Shown in pieces: positions 10,670 to 33,902 of a stretch of 34,182 nt of DNA (the first letter of the stretch is position 1; the number at the start of each line of letters is the position of its first letter). The notes beneath the pieces were generated by a model. The model saw only the letters and a list, made by a program, of their open reading frames with translations, was not told where the DNA came from and made no database searches. Position numbers and translations under genes: made by a program. Location: positions 4,037 through 38,218 of the forward strand of contig JADDRA010000051.1 in the NCBI GenBank assembly GCA_016781105.1, in the 5' to 3' direction. This DNA comes from Actinomycetota bacterium. GTDB lineage: Bacteria; Actinomycetota; Acidimicrobiia; Acidimicrobiales; CADCSY01.

Positions 10670-11326
10670 TCAGCCCCTCGCCGTCCAGGGCGTGAGGCGG
10701 CGCTGGACGACCAGCAGGGCGATGTCGGCGACCGCGGCCATGGCCACCGACAGGGCCGAGCCCACGACCAGCGGCGTGCGGAAGTCGCGGTTGAGCCCGT
10801 CGAGGATGAGCTGGCCCAGCCCGCCGTGGCCGATGAGGGCGGCCACCGTCACCAGACCGATGGTGGTCACGGTGGCGATGCGCACCCCGGCCACGATGGC
10901 GGGCAGGGCGAGGGGAAGCTCGATGCGGGCCAGGCGGCGGGCCCGTCGGTACCCGAGGCCCTGGGCTGCCTCCCGCACCTCGGCGGGTACGCCGTCGAGC
11001 CCGGCCACGATGTTGCGCACCAGGATGAGCAGCGTGTAGCCCACCAGCCCGATGAGGGCCGTGGTGCGCGACAGGCCCGTCCACGGCAACAGCAGCGCGA
11101 ACAGCGCCAGGGACGGGATGGCGTAGACCACGCCGGCGGCGGTCAGCACCGGCGGGTAGAGCCGGGGCCAGCGCCGGGCGGCCAGGGCCAGGGGCAGGGA
11201 GACGGCGATGCCGATGGCCACGGCCAGGGTGGTGAGCTCGACGTGCTCGCGCAGCAGGTCGAGGATCAGGGGCCGGTGGCCGGCGACCCACTCCCAGTCG
11301 ACCCACGCCTGCCGGCCCGTCACCAC
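10670..11326 (-). CDS. Osmoprotectant ABC transporter permease (ProW/OpuBB-like)
   Basis: VPAEVREAAQGLGYRRARRLARIELPLALPAIVAGVRIATVTTIGLVTVAALIGHGGLG. Confidence 0.9.
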   Translation of the reverse strand: MVTGRQAWVDWEWVAGHRPLILDLLREHVELTTLAVAIGIAVSLPLALAARRWPRLYPPVLTAAGVVYAIPSLALFALLLPWTGLSRTTALIGLVGYTLLILVRNIVAGLDGVPAEVREAAQGLGYRRARRLARIELPLALPAIVAGVRIATVTTIGLVTVAALIGHGGLGQLILDGLNRDFRTPLVVGSALSVAMAAVADIALLVVQRRLTPWTARG

Positions 11327-17912: not shown

Positions 17913-18170
17913 GTGAGGACGACGGTCACCCTCGATCCCGATGTCGCCGCCGCGCTCGAGCAGGCCGCTCGCGAACGACGTACCTCGTTCAAGAAGGTGC
18001 TGAACGACGCCGTCCGGGCCGGGCTGCGCCCTGCCGTGGCCCCTCGCCCCTACCGGCTCCCGACCCGGCCCATGGGGCTGCGGCCGGGGATCGACCTGGA
18101 CAAGGCGTCGGCGATAGCCGGCGATCTCGACGATCGAGAGGTGATGCGCAAGCTCGAGCTGCGGAAGTGA
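17913..18170 (+). CDS. Ribbon-helix-helix antitoxin (CopG/VapB-like)
   Basis: VRTTVTLDPDVAAALEQAARERRTSFKKVLNDAVRAGL. Confidence 0.88.
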   Translation: MRTTVTLDPDVAAALEQAARERRTSFKKVLNDAVRAGLRPAVAPRPYRLPTRPMGLRPGIDLDKASAIAGDLDDREVMRKLELRK

Positions 18171-18598
18171 GGTTGGTCGACCTGAACCTCCTGCTCTACG
18201 CCCTCGACGAGACCTCGCCCCATCACGGCCGGGCCAGGGACTGGGTGGAGGAGGCGATGTCGGGGCCCGAGACGCTGGCCCTGGCCTGGTCGGTCCTCCT
18301 GGGCTTCGTGCGTCTGTCCACCCGGGCCGCCGTCTTCGAGCACCCGCTGCCGGTCGACGACGCCCTCGACCTCGTCGACGACTGGCTGGCGCAACCCGCC
18401 ACCACCGTCGTGCACCCCACGCAGCGCCATGGGGCGATCCTGCGGTCGCTCCTGCAACCCCTGGGCACGGCCGGCAACCTGACCACCGACGCACACCTGG
18501 CGGCGCTCGCCATCGAGCACGGGGCCGAGCTGTGCTCCTCCGACGCCGACTTCTCTCGCTTCCCCGGCGTGCGCTGGACCGATCCCCTCCGTCGCTGA
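18167..18598 (+). CDS. vapC: PIN-domain toxin (VapC)
   Basis: VRLVDLNLLLYALDETSPHH...NLTTDAHLAALAIEHGAELCSSDADFSRFPGVRW; overlaps the antitoxin by 4 nt. Confidence 0.93.
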   Translation: MRLVDLNLLLYALDETSPHHGRARDWVEEAMSGPETLALAWSVLLGFVRLSTRAAVFEHPLPVDDALDLVDDWLAQPATTVVHPTQRHGAILRSLLQPLGTAGNLTTDAHLAALAIEHGAELCSSDADFSRFPGVRWTDPLRR

Positions 18599-18744: not shown

Positions 18745-19683
18745 TCAGCGCTCCGGCTCGGCGGGGGCGGGGCCGGCCCGGCGGAGCTCCCGCTCGACCT
18801 GCTCCCAGGTGAGGACGTCGCCGTCGGCGCTGCGGACCGGGGCCCGGCGGTCGAGGGGAACCCCGGGCGAGCGGTCGTCGAGCTCCTTGCTGGCGGCGAA
18901 GCGGAAGAACAGCACGGTGATGACCGTCCACAGCAACAACCCGCCCACCACCTTCATGAGCATCCCGGCGAACTGCTGGTCGTGGGCGACGGACAGGCCG
19001 AAGACCCGGGGGACGACGTCGTAGGCCCGGTACACGATCCCGTCGGCGAAGGTCAGCCACCCGGCGGGGACGGTGGGGATGATCGACTGGAGGAACAGGT
19101 AGCCCATCTGCCCCGGCAGCGACAGGCGCAGCTCGGGGAGGGGCCCGGCCACCGGCAGCCACATGAGCAGGGCGCTGCTCACCACCAGCACGTGGACGCC
19201 GTAGTGGAGCAGGCCGTTGGCCACCGAGGTGTTGACCACCGCCGGCCAGTGGGTGAAGACGACCACCCCGTTGAAGATCAACGTGGCCGCCACCGGCCGG
19301 GCCAGGCGCCGGACGACGCCGTAGCCCTTCCCCGAGCCCACCAGCATCCGGGCCAACCACGTCGGGGTGGCCAGCAGGGCCATGGGTGGCACCACCAGCG
19401 ACAGCAGGAGGTGCTGGCCCATGTGCACGCCGTAGAGGTACTCCTCTCCGAGGTCGTGCACCGGCCAGTCGGCTGCGACCCACAGGGCGACCAGGGCGGC
19501 CACGAACCACGCCACCTGGCTCCGGGTCACCACCGGCTCGCCCGGGCGGGTGGCCCGGGGGCCGATGCGGGTGACGGCCCAGACGTAGGCGAGGGCCAAG
19601 CCGACCACGAGCGCCCACACCTCGGGATGAGGCTGCCAGCGCCAGGGATCGCCTCGCACCACGGTGGCGGCGAGCACGGGCAT
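18745..19683 (-). CDS. ctaG: Cytochrome c oxidase assembly protein, caa3_CtaG family
   Basis: Multi-TM; LYGVHMGQHLLLSLVVPPMALLATP, HDQQFAGMLMKVVGGLLLWTVITVLFFRFAASKE. Confidence 0.88.
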   Translation of the reverse strand: MPVLAATVVRGDPWRWQPHPEVWALVVGLALAYVWAVTRIGPRATRPGEPVVTRSQVAWFVAALVALWVAADWPVHDLGEEYLYGVHMGQHLLLSLVVPPMALLATPTWLARMLVGSGKGYGVVRRLARPVAATLIFNGVVVFTHWPAVVNTSVANGLLHYGVHVLVVSSALLMWLPVAGPLPELRLSLPGQMGYLFLQSIIPTVPAGWLTFADGIVYRAYDVVPRVFGLSVAHDQQFAGMLMKVVGGLLLWTVITVLFFRFAASKELDDRSPGVPLDRRAPVRSADGDVLTWEQVERELRRAGPAPAEPER

Positions 19684-19693
19684 GGGGGGACGC

Positions 19694-20041
19694 CTACCAG
19701 AACCGGAACGTCGTGAGGGTGGCGGCGTAGACGCCCACGGCGAGCACCAGGCCGGACACGAACACCCGGGTGAACAGGTTCGAGTCGAAGCGCAGGTGCA
19801 TGAACCAGGCCACGACCAGGACGAACTTCACGATCATCATGATCACCAGCGCGGGCACCAGCAGCGCACCCAGTTGGTCCTCGACGTAGAAGCTGGCCAC
19901 CTCCAGGGCGGTGAGCACGGCCAGGATGAGGGCGATCCCCACGTAGCTGCGGTCGCTCGGGTGGTCGTGGCCCTCGTGCTCGGTCTGGGCGTCGTGCTCC
20001 GCCTGCGCCTCCCGGGCCAGGGTCTCGTCGCTCACGCTCAC
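19694..20041 (-). CDS. Cytochrome c oxidase subunit IV (COX4_pro/CyoD-like)
   Basis: YVGIALILAVLTALEVASFYVE...LVIMMIVKFVLVVAWFMHLRFDSNLFTRVFVSGLVLA. Confidence 0.88.
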   Translation of the reverse strand: MSVSDETLAREAQAEHDAQTEHEGHDHPSDRSYVGIALILAVLTALEVASFYVEDQLGALLVPALVIMMIVKFVLVVAWFMHLRFDSNLFTRVFVSGLVLAVGVYAATLTTFRFW

Positions 20042-20051
20042 CTGTGCCTCC

Positions 20052-20711
20052 TCACGCCGGGATCAGGTAGACGAGGGTGAAGATGATGATCCAGATGATG
20101 TCGACGAAGTGCCAGTAGAGGCCCACGATCTCGACCGTCTCCGATCGCTCGGCCGGGAGCCGCCCCCGCAGCGACATCACGAACAGGCTGACCAGCATGA
20201 GGATCCCGATGGTGACGTGCACCCCGTGGAAGCCGGTGAGGGTGTAGAAGGCCGAGCTCTGCAGGTTGGTCGTGTAGCCCAGGCCCTCCCGTACGAACGA
20301 GGTGAACTCGTACACCTGCCCGGCGATGAAGGTGGCGCCGAGCATGGCCGTGGTGAGCAACCAGGTGCGGGCCCGACGGTGGTCGGCCCGCTGGATGGCC
20401 GACAGCGACAGCACCATGGTCAGCGAGCTCATCAGCAGCACGAAGGAGCTGACCGAGGTGAAGGGGATGTCGTAGAGGTCGCCCACGGCCGGCCCGACCA
20501 TGCCCTCGACGTCCTTGGAGCGGTAGAGCAAGAAGGCGGAGATGAGCCCGCCGAAGAGCAGGCACTCCGAGCCGAGGAACAGCCACATCCCCAGCTTCTC
20601 GTTCGACAGCCCGGTGCTGGTGTGATGCGCCGGCGCCGCCGCGTCGTGGGGGACGTGGTCGGCCCGGTCGGCCACCACCTCGGGCGGCGCGGTCTGCTCG
20701 CTGACGCTCAT
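20052..20711 (-). CDS. ctaE: Cytochrome c oxidase subunit III
   Basis: KLGMWLFLGSECLLFGGLISAFLLYR...FYTLTGFHGVHVTIGILML...GLYWHFVDIIWIIIFTLVYL. Confidence 0.95.
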   Translation of the reverse strand: MSVSEQTAPPEVVADRADHVPHDAAAPAHHTSTGLSNEKLGMWLFLGSECLLFGGLISAFLLYRSKDVEGMVGPAVGDLYDIPFTSVSSFVLLMSSLTMVLSLSAIQRADHRRARTWLLTTAMLGATFIAGQVYEFTSFVREGLGYTTNLQSSAFYTLTGFHGVHVTIGILMLVSLFVMSLRGRLPAERSETVEIVGLYWHFVDIIWIIIFTLVYLIPA

Positions 20712-22795
20712 GCTCGCTCCCCCGACCCGGCGCGGTCGCCGCTGGCCGTCGCCCCGTCACCGGCGCCGACCCCCACCAGTTCGGCCTCCTCCCCGGTGGC
20801 GTCGGTGCCCGGCCCGGGGCCGTGCCCGTCGTCGTGGCCGTGGTCGTCGTGGCCGGCCTCGGGGTCGACCGACGGCTCGAGGCCCAGGCCCACGACACCC
20901 CCCACGACCATGATCCCCCCCAGCGCCGAGAGCCAGTAGGTGTAGAGCAGCCCGTAGCTGATCAGGGGCAGGCCCAGGGCGATGACGATGGGCCAGTACG
21001 ACGGCGAGGGCAGGTGGATCGAGGAGGTGTCGACCTGGGGCTCCCGGCCTCCCCGGCCCAGCGACACCTCGTCGACCGCGCTGAGGAACTCGTAGTGCTC
21101 CCGGCGCACGGGCCGACCCGACTCGTCCTCGTCGTACTTGCGGTGCCACCACTCGTCGAGGTGACCGACGGTGGGTTCCACGTCGAAGTTGTGGACCGGC
21201 GGTGGCGAGGAGGTGGCCCACTCGAGGGTGCGGCCGTCCCACGGGTCGGCGCCGGCGTGGGGGTTCTTGCGGCTGCGCACCACGTTGTAGACCCAGACCA
21301 GGAAGGACAGGGCGATGAGGAACGAGCCAATGGTCTCCAGCAGGTTCATCAAGTCCCAGCCCATCCCCTCGGGATAGGTCGCCGTGCGCCGAGGCATGCC
21401 CTGGAGCCCCACGATGTGCATGGGGCCGAAGGTGAGGTTGAACCCGGCGAACATGAGCCAGAAGTGGACCTTGCCGATGCGCTCGCTGAGCTTGTGGCCG
21501 AAGATCTTGGGCCACCAGTAGTAGATGCCGGAGAAGATCCCGAACATCGAGCCACCGAAGAGCACGTAGTGGAAGTGGGCCACGACGAAGTAGGTGTCGG
21601 TCTGCTGGGTGTCGTGGGGAGCCACCGAGTGCATGACCCCCGACAGGCCGCCGATGGTGAACTGGGAGACCAGGCCCACGGCGAAGAGCATGGCCACGGT
21701 GAAGCTCAACTTGCCCCGCCAGAGCGTGCCGATCCAGTTGAAGATCTTCACCCCGGTCGGCACGGCGATGAACATGGTCGACAGCGAGAAGGCGGCGACC
21801 GAGACCGGTCCCACGCCCGAGGCGAACATGTGGTGGGCCCAGACCCCCCATCCCATGAAGCCGATGGCGATGCCCGAGAACACCATGAAGGGGTAGCCGA
21901 AGAGCGGCTTGCGGGAGAAGGTGGGGATCACGTCCGAGACGATCCCGAAGGCGGGCAGGATGAGGATGTAGACCTCGGGATGGCCGAAGATCCAGAACAG
22001 GTGCTGCCACAGCAGGGGGTCGGCCCCGGCCTCCACCACGAAGAAGTTGGCCCCGTAGAGCCGGTCGAACATGAGCAGGAACAAGGCCACGGTGATGACG
22101 GGGATGGCGAAGAGCAGCAGGAACTGGGCCACCAGGGCCATCCACACGAACACCGGCATGCGCAGCAGGGTCATCCCCGGCGCCCGCATGTTGAGGCAGG
22201 TGACGATCAGGTTGACGGCGCCCACCAGCGAGGCGATGCCGGTGATCTGCAGGCCCAGGACCCAGAAGTCGATCCCGTGCCCGGGCGAGTAGGCGACGCC
22301 CGACTGGGGGGCGTAGTTGAACCAGCCGCTGTCGGGGGCGCCACCCAGGAAGAAGCTGGAGTAGAGGAACAGGCCGCCGAAGAGGAAGACCCAGTAGCTG
22401 AAGGCGTTCAGCCGAGGGTAGGCGACGTCGCGGGCCCCGATCATCAACGGGATGAGGTAGTTGGCGAAGCCTGCCAGCATGGGCATGATCACCAGGAACA
22501 CCATGGTGGTGCCGTGCATGGTGAAGAGCTGGTTGTAGACCTGGGGGTCGAGCACCTGGCCGTTGGGCTGGGCGAGCTGAGCCCGGATGAGCAGCGCCTC
22601 CAGGCCGCCGAGGGCGAAGAAGGCCATGGCGGTGGCGCCGTACATGATCCCGATCTTCTTGTGGTCTACCGTGGTCAGCCACGAGCGCCAGCCCGGGCTG
22701 TCCGACGGGCGGGTGAAGACGCCGAGGGGCTTGCGCACCACGGCCTCCTCTCCCGAGGTCAGCTCGAGGGGGGGACGTTCCTCCGTCAGCGCCAT
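20708..22795 (-). CDS. ctaD: Cytochrome c oxidase subunit I, all canonical metal ligands present
   Basis: TMHGTTMVFLVIMP, FGHPEVYILILPAFGIVSDVIPTFS, GWGVWAHHMFASG, FVVAHFHYVLFGG. Confidence 0.98.
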   Translation of the reverse strand: MALTEERPPLELTSGEEAVVRKPLGVFTRPSDSPGWRSWLTTVDHKKIGIMYGATAMAFFALGGLEALLIRAQLAQPNGQVLDPQVYNQLFTMHGTTMVFLVIMPMLAGFANYLIPLMIGARDVAYPRLNAFSYWVFLFGGLFLYSSFFLGGAPDSGWFNYAPQSGVAYSPGHGIDFWVLGLQITGIASLVGAVNLIVTCLNMRAPGMTLLRMPVFVWMALVAQFLLLFAIPVITVALFLLMFDRLYGANFFVVEAGADPLLWQHLFWIFGHPEVYILILPAFGIVSDVIPTFSRKPLFGYPFMVFSGIAIGFMGWGVWAHHMFASGVGPVSVAAFSLSTMFIAVPTGVKIFNWIGTLWRGKLSFTVAMLFAVGLVSQFTIGGLSGVMHSVAPHDTQQTDTYFVVAHFHYVLFGGSMFGIFSGIYYWWPKIFGHKLSERIGKVHFWLMFAGFNLTFGPMHIVGLQGMPRRTATYPEGMGWDLMNLLETIGSFLIALSFLVWVYNVVRSRKNPHAGADPWDGRTLEWATSSPPPVHNFDVEPTVGHLDEWWHRKYDEDESGRPVRREHYEFLSAVDEVSLGRGGREPQVDTSSIHLPSPSYWPIVIALGLPLISYGLLYTYWLSALGGIMVVGGVVGLGLEPSVDPEAGHDDHGHDDGHGPGPGTDATGEEAELVGVGAGDGATASGDRAGSGERA

Positions 22796-22802
22796 CAGGG
22801 CA

Positions 22803-23885
22803 TCACTCCAAGGTTTCCAGGTAGGAGTACAGGGCGTCGATCTCGTCTTCGGTCAGCTCGCCGATCACCATCAGCGACCCGGCCTTGCGCTGGGGATCCC
22901 GCAGCCAGGCCTCGAGCTCGTTGCGATCGTCGAGGTCGTAGATGCACCCGGCAAAGCAGTCGCGGCTGAACAGGTGGGTGAGGTCGGGGGCGGGCGGGGA
23001 GTCGGCTGCCACCGACTCGAAGGAGCCCTGGACCTGGTGGCAGCCGGCGCAGCCCTTCTGGGAGAACAGCTCGAAGCCCTGGGCCGCCAGCCCCGACAGC
23101 GGCTTCTGGGGCGGGCGCTGCATCCCCTCGACCCAGTCCTCCCAACCGGCCTGGTCGTGGGCCACCACCTTGAGGCGCATGTTGGCGTGCGAGGTCCCGC
23201 AGAACTCGGCGCACTGGCCCGAGTAGACGCCGGGCTCGTAGGCCTCCAGGGACCAGGTGTGGGTGCGACCAGGCACGACGTCTTGCTTGCCGTTGAGCCG
23301 GGGCGTCCAGAAGGAGTGGATGACGTCGGGCGAGGTCAGGGTCAAGAAGACCGGCTGGCCCGCGGGGATGTGCAGCTCGTTGGCGGTGACGATGGGCTCT
23401 TCGATGCCGAACTCGGACTGGCCCTCGGGGTACTGGTAGCCCCACCAGAACTTCTGGCCGGTGACCGACACCTGCAGGGCGTTGGCCGGCTCGGCGCTGA
23501 GCGTGAACACGACCGGGATGGTGAACACGGCGACCAGGCCCAGCACCAGGGCGGGCAGGATCGTCCAGCTGATCTCCAGCTTGGTGCTGCCGTGGAACTG
23601 GACGGGCAGCTCGTCGTCGTTGTCGTCCCTGCGCCGGCGGTAGCGGACCACGGCGTAGACGATGAGCCCCTCGACCAGGACGAACACGGCTACGGCGACC
23701 CAGAAGATGGGCATGAAGAGGTTGTCGAGCGTCTCGGCCAGGGGGCCGGCGGGTTCGAGGACGTCCTGGGGCGCGTCGCGGGCGCAGCCGCCGGCCACCA
23801 GGGCCACGACCAGACCCAGGAGTGTGAGCCGGCCCCGTCTCACCATGGTGGGGCCAGGGTGGCCGAGCCGAGCGCCCTTCGCCAA
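22803..23885 (-). CDS. ctaC: Cytochrome c oxidase subunit II with C-terminal cytochrome c domain (caa3 type)
   Basis: CuA motif YSGQCAEFCGTSHANMRLKV and heme c motif FSQKGCAGCHQVQG. Confidence 0.96.
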   Translation of the reverse strand: MAKGARLGHPGPTMVRRGRLTLLGLVVALVAGGCARDAPQDVLEPAGPLAETLDNLFMPIFWVAVAVFVLVEGLIVYAVVRYRRRRDDNDDELPVQFHGSTKLEISWTILPALVLGLVAVFTIPVVFTLSAEPANALQVSVTGQKFWWGYQYPEGQSEFGIEEPIVTANELHIPAGQPVFLTLTSPDVIHSFWTPRLNGKQDVVPGRTHTWSLEAYEPGVYSGQCAEFCGTSHANMRLKVVAHDQAGWEDWVEGMQRPPQKPLSGLAAQGFELFSQKGCAGCHQVQGSFESVAADSPPAPDLTHLFSRDCFAGCIYDLDDRNELEAWLRDPQRKAGSLMVIGELTEDEIDALYSYLETLE

Positions 23886-24720: not shown

Positions 24721-25344
24721 TCACGGACCCCCGACGAGGAACCAGATGCTGTACCAGACGACGAGGCCGACCGCCACGCTGAAGTGCCAGAAGGTGACGG
24801 CGCTGACCACCATCTCCCGGTTGTCAGGGGAGAACTGGCCGCCCAGGGCGCGAAAGCCCACGACCACCAGGGCCACGTGGGCGGCGATCACCACCAGGAG
24901 GTGGGTGACGGTCACGGCGTACACGGTGGTGGCGAAGCGGGAGGCCTCGGCCACCATCCCGAGCTGGGACCACGAGAAGGACAGGGCGTTGACGAAGGCC
25001 AGGCCGAGCACGAGCGTGAGCCCGAGGGCCACGTAGGCGGCCCGCCGGTCCCGGCCGTTGATGGCCGACACCGACCACTGGGCGGTGACCGACGACATGA
25101 GGAGGGTCAGGTAGCCGACGAAGAGGGGGACGTTGGGCAGGACGACGTCCTGGGGGACCCAGGCCTCGCCGGCCGCCCGGGCCACCTCACGAGCCGAGAA
25201 GTAGCTGGCCAGCAGGCCCCCGAAGAGGGTGGTGCCGGCGGCGACGGCGAACAGGGTGCCCACCAGCAAGACGTTGCGCCGGCCCCGCTCGGGTGCGGGG
25301 GCCAGGGCGGGCAGCATCCCGGCGGCCGTGCTGGGCGCGCTCAT
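24721..25344 (-). CDS. Heme-copper oxidase subunit III paralogue (divergent)
   Basis: GTTLFGGLLASYFSAREVA..., GLTLVLGLAFVNALSFSWSQ..., VVSAVTFWHFSVAVGLVVWYSIWFLV align with subunit III topology. Confidence 0.85.
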   Translation of the reverse strand: MSAPSTAAGMLPALAPAPERGRRNVLLVGTLFAVAAGTTLFGGLLASYFSAREVARAAGEAWVPQDVVLPNVPLFVGYLTLLMSSVTAQWSVSAINGRDRRAAYVALGLTLVLGLAFVNALSFSWSQLGMVAEASRFATTVYAVTVTHLLVVIAAHVALVVVGFRALGGQFSPDNREMVVSAVTFWHFSVAVGLVVWYSIWFLVGGP

Positions 25345-25392
25345 GGCGACGCGCTCATGGCGACGCGCTCATGGGGACGCGCTCATGGGGAC
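25337..25392. repeat. Four 14-bp tandem repeats GCGCTCATGGSGAC spanning the junction of the subunit I and subunit III paralogues
   Basis: Units 25337-25350, 25351-25364, 25365-25378, 25379-25392; each carries ATGA on the minus strand. Confidence 0.95.
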
Positions 25393-27032
25393 GCACTCCC
25401 GCCGTCGGTGCCAACCGGCACCGGGCCGCCGGCCTCGGCACCGTCCTGGGCGCCGTCCCGGCCGTCGAGCGGCCACGCCGAGGTCACGGGAGGGAGCTCG
25501 CCGGTGAAGTTCTCCGCCGGTGGGGGCGAGCTCGTGGCCCACTCCAGGGTCGCCGCGCCCCACGGGTTGGCGATGGCCCGGGTGCCCCCCTTGCGCCCGG
25601 CCCGGACCACCAGATCGCCGACGACCACGAGCAGCCCGAGCGCGGCCAGGGCTCCGCCGGCCATGCTGGCGCCGTTGAGCAGGGTGGTGAGGGTGTCGCT
25701 CTCGAAGCTGGCGGTCAGCCGGGCCTGGTCGGAGACCAGCGCGCTCACCAGGTCGGGGACGGCCAGCAGGAGCACGCCCCAGAAGGTCAGGGCGAAGGCC
25801 GCGGTCCCCGCAGCGTCCCCCAGGTGGACGCCCCAGATCTTGGGAGCCCAGAACCACAGGGCGGCGTAGGCGCCCAGGACCCCGGCGCCGAACAGGGTGA
25901 GGTGGACCTGGGCCGTCGTCCACACCGTCGGGTCGAGCTCGAGGCCGGGGATGACCAGCACGGCGCCGGCCAGGGCCCCGAGCAGGAGGTGGACGACCGC
26001 GCCGAGGGCCAGCAGCAGCGCGGGCTTGCGCACGAAGTGGCCGCGGCGCACGACGTCACCGAGCACGCCGACCAGGGCGAGGGCCGGGACCACGGCGACG
26101 AGGCCGGCCACCACGTAGAGCAGGTCGTCGGCGTAGGGCTCGACCTGGGCCCACGCACCGAAGCCGAGCAGGCCCAGGGCACCGAGGACGGCGATGCCGG
26201 CGCTGTTGCGGCGCAGCCGGCTGCGGGCGAGCACGGGGACGACCTCGGCGGCCACGCCCGCAGCGGGCACGGCCAGCAGGTACACCTGAGGGATCGACCA
26301 GAACCAACCGATCTGGCCCGCGGGCTCGAGGGCGGCCAGGTCGGCCCCGAAGTGGTGGTGGATGAAGAGCTCGATCAGGCGGGCCAGCAGGACCGGCGTG
26401 GCCAGCAGGGTCAGGCCGCCGCCCACCACCACCGACCAGGTGAACATCGGGGTGCGCAGCATGGTCATGCCCGGTGCCCGCAGGGTGACGGCGGTCGTGA
26501 GGATGCTGATCAGGGCGAGGCACGTCGAGGCAGCCAGGAGGGCGAGGCTGAGCAGGTACAGGTCGGTCCCCACCGTGCTGGCGCCGTCGAGGCCCCCGTC
26601 GGCGGCGTAGGCCCCGAGCAGCAGGGCACCACCGAGGACGTAGGTCCACAGGGCGGTGGCCGAGCCTCGGGGGAAGGCGATGTCGCTGGCCCCGATCTGC
26701 AGGGGCACCAGGTAGGTGGCCAGGCCCAGGAAGAACGGGACCAGGAACAGCAGGACGGTGACCTCGCTGTGGAGCGTGTGCACCTGGGCGAAGGCCCTGG
26801 AGGGCACGAGCTGGAAGCCGCCGTTGATGCGCTCGACGCCGAGGACCCCACCGGCGGCGCTGCCGACCAGCAGGAACGCCAGGGCGAAGGCCAGGTAGAG
26901 CCGGCCCACCACCTTGTGGTCGAAGGTCGTCAGCCACCGGGCCGGGCCCGTCAGCTCCCGCTCGGGCGGGGTCCCGGCCGGCCCCTCGACGGCACTCGAG
27001 CCCGCCTCGGCTCGGGTCTCGGTCATGGTCAC
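25383..27032 (-). CDS. Heme-copper oxidase subunit I paralogue lacking CuB/heme a3 ligands
   Basis: WLTTFDHKVVGRLYL, HTLHSEVTVLLFLVPFFLGLATYLVPLQIGASDIAFPR, LRAPGMTMLRTPMFTW, FWAPKIWG, TLEWATSSPPPAENF match ctaD; HPEVY->IPQVY, WAHHM->WAQVE, AHFHY->AQVHL. GTG start at 27032 (ATG alternative at 27026). Confidence 0.9.
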   Translation of the reverse strand: MTMTETRAEAGSSAVEGPAGTPPERELTGPARWLTTFDHKVVGRLYLAFALAFLLVGSAAGGVLGVERINGGFQLVPSRAFAQVHTLHSEVTVLLFLVPFFLGLATYLVPLQIGASDIAFPRGSATALWTYVLGGALLLGAYAADGGLDGASTVGTDLYLLSLALLAASTCLALISILTTAVTLRAPGMTMLRTPMFTWSVVVGGGLTLLATPVLLARLIELFIHHHFGADLAALEPAGQIGWFWSIPQVYLLAVPAAGVAAEVVPVLARSRLRRNSAGIAVLGALGLLGFGAWAQVEPYADDLLYVVAGLVAVVPALALVGVLGDVVRRGHFVRKPALLLALGAVVHLLLGALAGAVLVIPGLELDPTVWTTAQVHLTLFGAGVLGAYAALWFWAPKIWGVHLGDAAGTAAFALTFWGVLLLAVPDLVSALVSDQARLTASFESDTLTTLLNGASMAGGALAALGLLVVVGDLVVRAGRKGGTRAIANPWGAATLEWATSSPPPAENFTGELPPVTSAWPLDGRDGAQDGAEAGGPVPVGTDGGSASP

Positions 27033-27039
27033 GGCGCGC

Positions 27040-27927
27040 TCACCGCAGGAGTTGGTCGAGGGCCATGGCCCCGAACAGCAGGCTGATGTAGGAGATCGAC
27101 CAGTGGAACAGGCGCATGGCCCTGGCCGGCTCGGGCACCCGCAGGAGCTCCACGGCGTACCAGGTGAACACCGCCCCGAGCACCACGGCCGCCACCAGGT
27201 AGAGGCCACCCATGCCGGCCACGGGGACGAAGGCGAGGGTCAGGGCCCACAGCACCAGGCTGTAGGCCAGGATGCGCCGCGCCGTGGCCCGCAGCCCGGC
27301 CACGGCAGGGAGCATGGGCACCTCGGCGGCGGCGTAGTCCTCCCGGTAGCGCACGGCAAGAGCCCAGAAGTGCGGCGGGGTCCACACGAAGATGACGGCG
27401 AAAAGTACCAGGGGGGCCCACCCCAGGGCATCTCGGACCGCAGCCCACCCCACCAGCACCGGGACCGCCCCGGCGGCGCCGCCGATGACGATGTTGCTCG
27501 ACGACGTGCGCTTGAGCCACAGGGTGTAGACGACGACGTAGAAGGCGGTGGCGCTCATGGCCAGGACGGCGCTGAGCAGGTTGACCCCCGTCCAGAGCAG
27601 GGCGAAGGCGGCGAGCTCCAGGGCCAGGGCGAACACCAGGGCCTGGCCCGGCTCGATGGCGCCGGTCACGAGCGGGCGGTTGCGGGTGCGGCGCATGATC
27701 CGATCGATGTCCCGGTCGATGACCATGTTCAAGGCGTTCGCTCCCCCGGCCGCCAGGGCCCCGCCGGTGAGGGTGGCGGCCACCAGCCACAGCGACGGCC
27801 ACCCCCCCTCGGCCACGACCATGGTGGGCAGGGTGGTCACCAGCAACAGCTCGATGATGCGGGGCTTGGTGAGCGCGACGTAGGCACCGACTCTCGACGT
27901 GATCGCAGGCCCGGCCACGTGCTGCAT
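27040..27927 (-). CDS. ctaB: Protoheme IX farnesyltransferase (heme O synthase)
   Basis: YVALTKPRIIELLLVTTLPTM...GGANALNMVIDRDIDRIMRRTRNRPL...FVWTPPHFWALAVRYREDYAAAEVPMLP. Confidence 0.97.
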   Translation of the reverse strand: MQHVAGPAITSRVGAYVALTKPRIIELLLVTTLPTMVVAEGGWPSLWLVAATLTGGALAAGGANALNMVIDRDIDRIMRRTRNRPLVTGAIEPGQALVFALALELAAFALLWTGVNLLSAVLAMSATAFYVVVYTLWLKRTSSSNIVIGGAAGAVPVLVGWAAVRDALGWAPLVLFAVIFVWTPPHFWALAVRYREDYAAAEVPMLPAVAGLRATARRILAYSLVLWALTLAFVPVAGMGGLYLVAAVVLGAVFTWYAVELLRVPEPARAMRLFHWSISYISLLFGAMALDQLLR

Positions 27928-28074: not shown

Positions 28075-29022
28075 ATGGGCCTGCCCGCGATCTCGCCCGC
28101 CGCCTACCGCCGGGTCACCCTCCTGGCCGTGGTGGCGCTGGGCTTCATCGTGGTCACCGGGGCCGCCGTGCGCCTCACCGGTTCGGGCCTGGGCTGCACC
28201 GACTGGCCGACCTGCGAGCAGGGACGGCTGGCGCCGGCCGAGATCACCGATGCGCCGGCCATGATCGAGTTCGTCAACCGCCTCATCACCGGGGTGGTCT
28301 CGGTCGCCGTGGTCCTCGCCGTGGCCGGGGCCTGGCGCCGGCGCCCCCGGCGCCGCGACCTGGTGTGGCTGGCTGCGGGCCTGGTGGCCGGGGTCGTGGG
28401 CCAGATCGTCCTCGGCGGCCTGGTCGTGCTCTTCGAGCTTTCCCCCCGGCTGGTCATGGGCCACTTCCTGCTGTCCATGGTCATCCTGTGGAACGCGGTC
28501 GTGCTCCACCACCGGGCCGGGCGCCCCGGCGGGCCGGTGGTGGCCCTGGTCGAGCCCTCGTTGGTGGGCCTGGCCCGCCTGGTGTTCGCCGCCGGCGCAC
28601 TGGTGGTCTTCACCGGGACCGTCGTCACCGCCTCGGGACCCCACGCCGGCGACAGCCAGGCCGCTCGGCTCGACCTCTTCCTCCCCGACGTGGCCCGTCT
28701 CCACGGTCTGTCGGTGGTGGTGCTGGCCAGCCTCGCCCTGGTCCTGGCCGTGGGCCTGCGTCGCCAGCAGGCCCCCCCGGCGGTCCAGCGCTCGTCCCGA
28801 GTCCTCCTCGCCGTGCTCGTGGCCCAGGCGGCCGTGGGCTACACCCAGTACTTCACCGGCGTGCCCGCCCTCCTCGTCGGGGTGCACATCCTCGGCGCCG
28901 TGGCCGTGTGGAGCGCGGTGGTGGCGCTCAACCTGGCGGTGTCCGGCCCCACCGCGGTGTCGCCGGCCGGGGCCGACGCCCCGCCGGCCCCCGCCGACGC
29001 TCCCGCCCTGGCCGGCTCCTGA
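28075..29022 (+). CDS. ctaA: Heme A synthase (COX15/CtaA family)
   Basis: [83 protein letters not shown]. Confidence 0.95.
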
Positions 29023-31755: not shown

Positions 31756-32616
31756 GTGGCGGTCCGGGTGGAGCGGCTGACCGTGGCCCCCGGCGTGTCC
31801 CTCCACGTCGAGCACCGCCACGGGGGGGACCCCGCCTTCGTGCTGGTCCACGGCCTGGCCTCCAACCTGCGCCTGTGGGACGGGGTCGCCGTGTGCCTGG
31901 CGGGGTGGGGCCACGCCGTGGCCGCCGTCGACCAGCGGGGGCACGGACGGAGCGACAAGCCCGACCAGGGCTACGACTTCGAGACGGTCACCGACGACCT
32001 GGCCCGGCTGGTCGAAGGACTCGGCTTCGACCGCCCGGTGCTCGTGGGCCAGTCGTGGGGCGGCAACGTCGTCCTCGAGGCCGCCTGGCGCTTCCCCGGA
32101 TTGGCGAGGGGCGTGGCCTGCATCGACGGGGGGTGGATCGAGCTTCGGCGGCGCTTCCCGAGCTGGCGCGAGTGCAAGGCGGCCCTGACCCCCCCGGCGA
32201 TGGCCGGCCGGCCGGTGGCCGAGGTGGAAGCCGAGGTGCGTCGAGCGCATGCGGACTGGTCCGAGCAGGCCGTCGCCGGGGCCCTGGCCTGCTTCGAGCA
32301 GCGACCCGACGGGACGGTCGCCCCCTGGCTCGGCCTGGAGCACCACCTCGCCATCCTGCGTTCGCTGTGGGACCACCGGCCCTCCTCCCGCTACCCCGGC
32401 ATCGATGTCCCCGTGCTGCTGGTACCGGCGGAACCTGATCCGTCTGCGGTCGATCCCGACGGCGAGCACCGCCGGCGCGAGGTCGAGGAGGCGGCGCGCA
32501 GCCTGGCCCGCAGCCGGGTGCGCTGGGTGCTGGGCGACCACGACCTGCACGCCCACCACCCCAAGGAGGTGGCCGACCTGTTGCACGAGGCGAGCGTGGA
32601 CGGGTTCTTCGGATGA
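31756..32616 (+). CDS. Alpha/beta hydrolase
   Basis: FVLVHGLASNLRLWDGVA, VAAVDQRGHGRSDKP, VLVGQSWGGNVVLEAAWRFP, VLGDHDLHAHHPKEVADLLHE. Confidence 0.92.
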   Translation: MAVRVERLTVAPGVSLHVEHRHGGDPAFVLVHGLASNLRLWDGVAVCLAGWGHAVAAVDQRGHGRSDKPDQGYDFETVTDDLARLVEGLGFDRPVLVGQSWGGNVVLEAAWRFPGLARGVACIDGGWIELRRRFPSWRECKAALTPPAMAGRPVAEVEAEVRRAHADWSEQAVAGALACFEQRPDGTVAPWLGLEHHLAILRSLWDHRPSSRYPGIDVPVLLVPAEPDPSAVDPDGEHRRREVEEAARSLARSRVRWVLGDHDLHAHHPKEVADLLHEASVDGFFG

Positions 32617-33902
32617 GCGCCTCGGGCCCGTGGCCCCGCCTCCTCGCCATCATGGGATCGGGCGAGACCAGCCCCACCATGGTCGGCACCCACCGCCGGC
32701 TCGTCGAGCGGATGGGACCCGCCCCCGTTCCCGCCGTCGTGCTCGACACCCCCTTCGGCTTCCAGGCCAACGTCGAGATCCTGACCCGACGGGCGGTCGA
32801 GTACTTCCGGGAGAGCGTGGGCCTGGAGGTCGAGGTGGCCCGCTGGCGTTCGGCGGCGGAAGGTTCGACCCTCGAGGCCGAGCGCTCGCTGGCTCGCCTG
32901 CGGTCGGCCCGCTACGTCTTCGCCGGCCCCGGCAGCCCCTCCTACGCCCTTCGCCAGTGGGCCGGCTCGCCGGTTCCCGCCACCCTGGCCGCCAAGCTCG
33001 AGCAGGGGGGCTGCCTCACCTTTGCCAGCGCCGCCGCCCTGACCCTGGGAGCCGCCACCGTGCCCGTCTACGAGATCTACAAGGTGGGCGAGGAGCCGTG
33101 CTGGCTCGAGGGCCTCGATCTGCTGGCGCTGGCCGGCCTGCCCGGCATGGCCCTGATCCCCCACTACGACAACACCGAAGGGGGCAACCACGACACCCGC
33201 TACTGCTACCTGGGCGAGCCCCGCCTGGCCCGGTTGGAGGAGCAACTCCCCCACCACGGCTTCGTGCTCGGCGTCGACGAGCACACCGGCCTCGTGCTCG
33301 ACCTCGATGCGGGCACGGCCAGCGTCGTGGGCCGGGGCGGGGTCACCGTGCGCCGGCAGGGCTACAGCACCAGCTTCCCGAGCGGCTCGGAGGTGCCCAT
33401 CGCCGACCTGCGCCGGGCGGGGACGGCCCGGGGCGACGGGGGTGGGCCCCCGTCCACCACGGCAGCGGCGCCTCGGCCTCCTGGCGACCCCGAGGCGGAT
33501 GCAGCTGCCCCGGCGTCGCTGGTGGCCGCCTCCCGCCTGCTCGAGGCCCGCTTCGTGGCCGCGGTCGACGAGCGCGACGTCGACGCCGCCGTCGCCGCCG
33601 TCCTCGAGCTCGACGCCGCCATCGTCTCCTGGTCGCGCGACACGCTGCAGTCGGACGACGCCGACCAGGCCCGGGCTGCGCTGCGAGCGATGATCGTGCG
33701 CCTGGGCGAACTGGCCCGGGTCGGGGCGAGCGACCCCGAGGAACGGGCCCGGCCCTTCGTCGAGGCCGTGCTGGAGGCCCGCAGCGCCGCCCGGGCCGGC
33801 CGCGACTGGGCCACGGCCGACGCCTTGCGAGACCATCTCGTCGCCGCCGGGGTCGAGATCAGTGACACGCCGGAGGGGACCGACTGGAGGCTGCTATCGT
33901 GA
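32613..33902 (+). CDS. Peptidase S51/type 1 glutamine amidotransferase-like protein fused to a CysRS-like C-terminal (DALR_2 + tail) region
   Basis: N-terminus LLAIMGSGETSPTMV...YVFAGPGSPSYALRQW...GGCLTFASAAALTLGA...IPHYDNTEGG; C-terminus EARSAARAGRDWATADALRDHLVAAGVEISDTPEGTDWRL resembles the CysRS tail; no HIGH or KMSKS motif seen. Confidence 0.8.
   Translation: MSASGPWPRLLAIMGSGETSPTMVGTHRRLVERMGPAPVPAVVLDTPFGFQANVEILTRRAVEYFRESVGLEVEVARWRSAAEGSTLEAERSLARLRSARYVFAGPGSPSYALRQWAGSPVPATLAAKLEQGGCLTFASAAALTLGAATVPVYEIYKVGEEPCWLEGLDLLALAGLPGMALIPHYDNTEGGNHDTRYCYLGEPRLARLEEQLPHHGFVLGVDEHTGLVLDLDAGTASVVGRGGVTVRRQGYSTSFPSGSEVPIADLRRAGTARGDGGGPPSTTAAAPRPPGDPEADAAAPASLVAASRLLEARFVAAVDERDVDAAVAAVLELDAAIVSWSRDTLQSDDADQARAALRAMIVRLGELARVGASDPEERARPFVEAVLEARSAARAGRDWATADALRDHLVAAGVEISDTPEGTDWRLLS

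Follow-up and report, generated by a model that had tools for sequence, protein, structure and literature searches.

A catalytically erased subunit I and its companion subunits, a putative pseudo-oxidase module encoded with the caa3 oxidase of Acidimicrobiales

Nitric oxide reductases and other relatives of the heme-copper oxidases have altered active sites, yet they keep their hemes and a metal site. Among kinases and other enzymes, dead paralogues are well known to act as partners of their live counterparts. Two described systems come close to the locus studied here. The first is the actinobacterial bcc-aa3 core CtaD/CtaE/CtaF (for example PDB 6adq, 7q21 and 8hcr), which it resembles in the subunit I fold and in the three subunit types present. 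The second is the caa3 operon of other Actinomycetota (ctaC-D-E-F-G-X), with which it shares the live genes and a homologous X protein, having three transmembrane helices and a cupredoxin domain.

The window analysed in this work is a stretch of 34,182 nucleotides from a genome of the Acidimicrobiales (GCA_016781105.1, contig JADDRA010000051.1). On its reverse strand it carries a complete caa3-type operon: ctaC (22803..23885), whose start codon is uncertain and which encodes a subunit II with CuA and cytochrome c domains; ctaD (20708..22795), the canonical subunit I with a complete ligand set; ctaE (20052..20711), the canonical subunit III; ctaF (19694..20041), a caa3-type subunit IV; and ctaG (18745..19683), of the caa3 assembly factor family. 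Directly upstream of this operon lie degenerate versions of subunits I, III and IV, here called SU1x, SU3x and SU4x/X. They are preceded by ctaB, encoding heme O synthase (27040..27927, reverse strand), which ends 7 bases before the SU1x start. Divergent from ctaB is a ctaA-like candidate for heme A synthase (28075..29022, forward strand), assigned from reading the sequence alone. The C-terminal extension of the live CtaD has a weak, sub-threshold match to subunit IV (PF12270, residues 597-640), and thus this protein may carry subunit IV-like helices of its own. By eye, a small frame adjoining ctaG (18167-18598, forward strand) resembles PIN-domain proteins of the VapC type, and a frame at 32613-33902 (forward strand) resembles cyanophycinase-type peptidases, its C-terminal part being similar to the end of cysteinyl-tRNA synthetase.

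The oxygen-reducing site and the heme a ligands of SU1x

SU1x, the catalytically erased subunit I, occupies 25383..27032 of the reverse strand and starts at the GTG at 27032, taken here as residue 1, or at the ATG at 27026. The original prediction described an intact reading frame with subunit I motifs, and indeed the frame is open, the protein matches Pfam COX1 (PF00115; 181 bits, E=4e-53), and solved subunit I chains score up to 217 bits against it in alignment. Its score with TIGR02891, the CtaD/CoxA equivalog, is 257 bits, below the cut-off of 670.75. AlphaFold gives a confident model (pLDDT 87.7, pTM 0.89), with a TM-score of about 0.8 to solved subunit I, as expected of a homologue with the 12-helix fold; its closest structural matches come from subunit I in actinobacterial bcc-aa3 supercomplexes.

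When SU1x was aligned with the CtaD of the same window, with relatives and with solved subunit I chains, the ligand losses predicted for helices VI, VII and X were all found. In helix VI, HPEVY is replaced by I247-P-Q249-V-Y251, so that the CuB His and the gating Glu are gone and the Tyr is kept; in helix VII both CuB His are replaced (Q296-V297); and in helix X the a3 His has become Q375. The K-channel segment, previously reported as not recognisable, has Ala and Leu at the Thr and Lys positions. SU1x therefore lacks both residue sets of a functional O2 reductase, namely the three CuB His with the a3 His, and the gating Glu with the K-channel Lys. The conserved flanking residues P248, W371, W395 and K398 fix the register, which indicates that the ligand His have not shifted nearby. 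Displacement of these residues is ruled out by the same anchors together with 47 homologues, of which 45 lack the CuB His at all three positions and two have one of them. Sequencing error is likewise ruled out, since relatives of the same genus (79% and 76% identity) share these losses; absence from close relatives had been named as grounds for rejecting the prediction. Judged from its residues, SU1x is unable to reduce O2 or to move protons along the known paths, in agreement with the original view of an oxidase paralogue without O2 reduction. This sequence finding is firm and unusual, and it is from here that we infer a mechanism.

The fate of the low-spin heme site is different. The prediction that both heme a His are kept is true of the window protein, which has the bis-His pair in helices II (H88, within TLHSEVT) and X (H377). 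It also holds in most of the window's taxonomic family, but across the 47 SU1x proteins the pair is kept in only 15 and lost in 32, with at least four changes on the tree; in one locus from the window's own genus (L010) both His have been lost. The a3 His persists in seven of the 47. In subunit I, the helix I Arg and an Arg-Arg pair contact heme a. The window SU1x has Gly in place of the former, and its Arg-Arg pair is broken. With the His pair missing from 32 of the 47 proteins and the supporting arginines from the window protein, heme binding is not the conserved function of the family, and as such it can be ruled out. A bis-His heme a protein acting as carrier, conduit or sensor, to which the ligands kept in the window and in 15 members, and the a3 His kept as well in seven members, might point, is consequently rather improbable, and this part of the original prediction is weakened.

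Companion subunits, origin and selection

The original prediction considered SU1x as a single gene. The subunit I paralogue is real, but a module of three genes with counterparts of subunits I, III and IV had been overlooked. SU3x (24721..25344, reverse strand) is a subunit III homologue nearest to the actinobacterial aa3 CtaE model, which is also the match for 31 of 32 SU3x relatives. At its junction with SU1x, a 14-base unit (GCGTCCCCATGAGC and near variants; 25339-25394, reverse strand) occurs four times in tandem. Each copy overlaps an ATGA, and the final ATG (25344) starts SU3x; from the sequence, this chain of repeats could possibly serve as termination-reinitiation sites.

SU4x/X (P4; 23887..24717, reverse strand) joins an N-terminal half resembling aa3 subunit IV (CtaF) to a C-terminal domain X with three predicted transmembrane helices. 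Queried singly, the window protein gave no family match, but a profile built from its relatives hits aa3 subunit IV (CtaF) in the first half, with E down to 5e-8. Its model is of moderate quality (pLDDT 74, pTM 0.47), and a fold search with this model returned nothing under E=0.017, the list being headed by aa3 subunit IV. Among 31 relatives scanned with Pfam, 10 carry a cupredoxin domain, and about two thirds of the fusion proteins are without it, the window protein being among those with no cupredoxin tail.

The cupredoxin borne on X in many relatives, the placement of the module between ctaB and ctaC, and the linkage of ctaG in every Acidimicrobiales locus read whole could suggest an assembly platform, which would hold CtaC/CtaD or pass on heme A or copper (via the X cupredoxin) during biogenesis and be absent from the mature enzyme. 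We regard this as unlikely. An entire I+III+IV scaffold is large for a chaperone and, as both the cupredoxin and the heme a pair are often missing, cofactor hand-over is not a conserved feature. Both the heme and the cupredoxin features are confined to particular lineages.

In rapidly computed trees, whose branches are long, SU1x (47 rows) forms one side of a branch with support 100 and SU3x (43 rows) one side of a branch with support 97, and the subgroups of the two trees broadly match. A tree in which SU1x was constrained to group with aa3 scored 8.3 log units above the free search (p-AU 0.595), and one in which it was constrained to caa3 was 23 log units worse but was not rejected (p-AU 0.214). 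The source of the module would be an A-family oxidase, probably of the actinobacterial aa3 type.

The end branches of SU1x are several times longer than those of canonical subunit I. Between the window and a relative of the same genus, dN/dS of SU1x is 0.125 (YN00) or 0.40 (NG86), compared to 0.18 (NG86) for CtaD, in codon alignments that span open frames and whose synonymous sites are possibly saturated. Selection on SU1x is relaxed but purifying. The long branches and an NG86 value about twice that of CtaD are what a redundant oxidase copy decaying without function might show, but this is very improbable: nearly all loci, which come from about 30 families, have open frames, dN/dS is under 1, the gene order is fixed and co-occurrence with the live enzyme is almost perfect. 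A pseudogene is ruled out by the open frames, the dN/dS values and the gene order.

The erosion is uneven along the protein. Measured against canonical enzymes, conservation peaks in helices III-V (0.78-0.83) and in the C-terminal LEWATSSPPPxNF tail (1.00), the retention of which had been correctly predicted, and the IV-V loop is also among the least-eroded regions. The lowest values (0.42-0.54) are found in the loop before helix VI and in helices VIII-XI. The helix III-V side of subunit I faces subunit III.

Distribution and linkage to the caa3 operon

All 47 SU1x proteins found belong to a single clade within Acidimicrobiales. A search of 59 relatives found subunit I genes paired about 4-5 kb apart in most of the genomes that carry the paralogue; a scan of genome contigs with a conserved peptide matched mostly canonical oxidases. 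In the fetched loci, from about 30 families, the order ctaB-SU1x-SU3x-SU4x/X-ctaC-D-E-F-G is fixed, with additional genes inserted between SU4x/X and ctaC in some of them. Locus L045, from the branch whose SU1x retains the helix X HxH, has there a thioredoxin-like frame (10700-11180, forward strand; AWCPPC, TlpA/ResA-like by eye). In locus L048 (6356-11054), the module and ctaC are separated by an ABC transporter with a solute-binding protein, which by eye is of the metal type, and by a Fur-like frame.

Co-occurrence was counted in 148 Acidimicrobiales genomes (completeness floor 90), many of them metagenome bins, using SU4x/X as the marker for each genome; SU1x was read in the fetched loci only. 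SU4x/X is present in 89 of the 89 genomes with a caa3 ctaD and neither gene occurs in 50, these counts being of genomes and not of independent events, so that one gain followed by joint inheritance contributes to them. In the remaining nine, SU4x/X occurs but a full caa3 ctaD match is lacking, and most of these seem to be contig ends or broken assemblies. One of the nine (genome G034, locus L065, 10094-13950) contains SU1x, SU3x and a truncated SU4x that has an in-frame stop, with no adjacent caa3 genes. ABC transporter genes occupy the place expected for the caa3 operon, which may reflect rearrangement, loss or misassembly (contamination 6).

Full-length SU4x/X was not found outside Acidimicrobiales in the class and phylum samples, and none of the caa3 loci read from other Actinomycetota has SU1x or the pseudo-oxidase module. 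These loci contain ctaC-D-E-F-G and, in nearly every case, a separate X protein, which adjoins ctaG in most of those read and has a cupredoxin in most of those scanned. The module is dispensable for caa3 oxidases in general, as other Actinomycetota have caa3 operons that lack it. Outside the order, X has its own gene within the caa3 operon; here it is fused to SU4x, and this fusion links the dead copy with the live enzyme. The near-constant joint occurrence of live and dead copies makes it probable that the dead one is a built-in partner.

According to these data, we consider it reasonably probable that SU1x, SU3x and SU4x/X constitute a pseudo-oxidase, an obligate non-catalytic partner of the caa3 oxidase and most likely a lasting structural half of it. 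This reading draws on the loss of the site, the single clade, purifying selection, gene order, co-occurrence with caa3 ctaD and the X fusion; the module is encoded and inherited with ctaC/D/E, as a caa3 subunit should be. The module would consist of degenerate A-family copies of subunits I, III and IV that lost the O2 site and proton paths and kept the fold, with helices III-V and the C-terminal tail. The live caa3 oxidase would be produced together with it and would need it, lastingly or during assembly, and this half would dock to, stabilise or position the caa3 complex. We propose that it associates physically with that complex, stabilises it and stays in the mature enzyme. More tentatively, the caa3 oxidase of Acidimicrobiales may be an asymmetric live/dead complex, with the erased I+III+IV half obligate across much of the order. 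Of the options in the original prediction, that of a partner of the real oxidase is favoured, since the active site is lost and the module is strictly linked to the caa3 operon.

In M. smegmatis (PMC8361435), the main contacts between complexes III and IV, to QcrB (cytochrome b), are made via CtaE and CtaF, the subunits that SU3x and SU4x resemble. This makes conceivable an adaptor role, in which the aa3-like III and IV subunits would dock the caa3 oxidase to a complex III. Such a role seems doubtful at best, as many module genomes have a short cytochrome b match (often the only one, in frames of about 260-300 aa) and lack the long QcrB type present in module-less genomes, so that the known partner is often absent. 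The window's own genome has two QcrB-type genes (C16 and C88).

Comparison with known oxidases

A published description of the module was not found in the open-licence literature searched, nor was a described case of a dead paralogue as partner of a heme-copper oxidase core. A fold kept while the copper site, a3 ligand and proton paths were erased would part the structural role of an oxidase core from its chemistry, and the module would open to experiment the question of why some respiratory oxidases require a second core. It also cautions that, in these genomes, a match to Pfam COX1 may be a protein incapable of O2 reduction.

SU3x and SU4x score best against the actinobacterial aa3 branch. 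Unlike the bcc-aa3 core, the module is devoid of CuB, a3 and proton-path residues and has no copy of subunit II; its SU4x is fused to X, and it is encoded with caa3 and not with qcrCAB. The caa3 operon of other Actinomycetota has X as a gene on its own, and the loci read there have no module. Active-site residues are changed both in nitric oxide reductases and in SU1x, but SU1x has no CuB site, is usually without the a3 ligand and often without any heme ligand.
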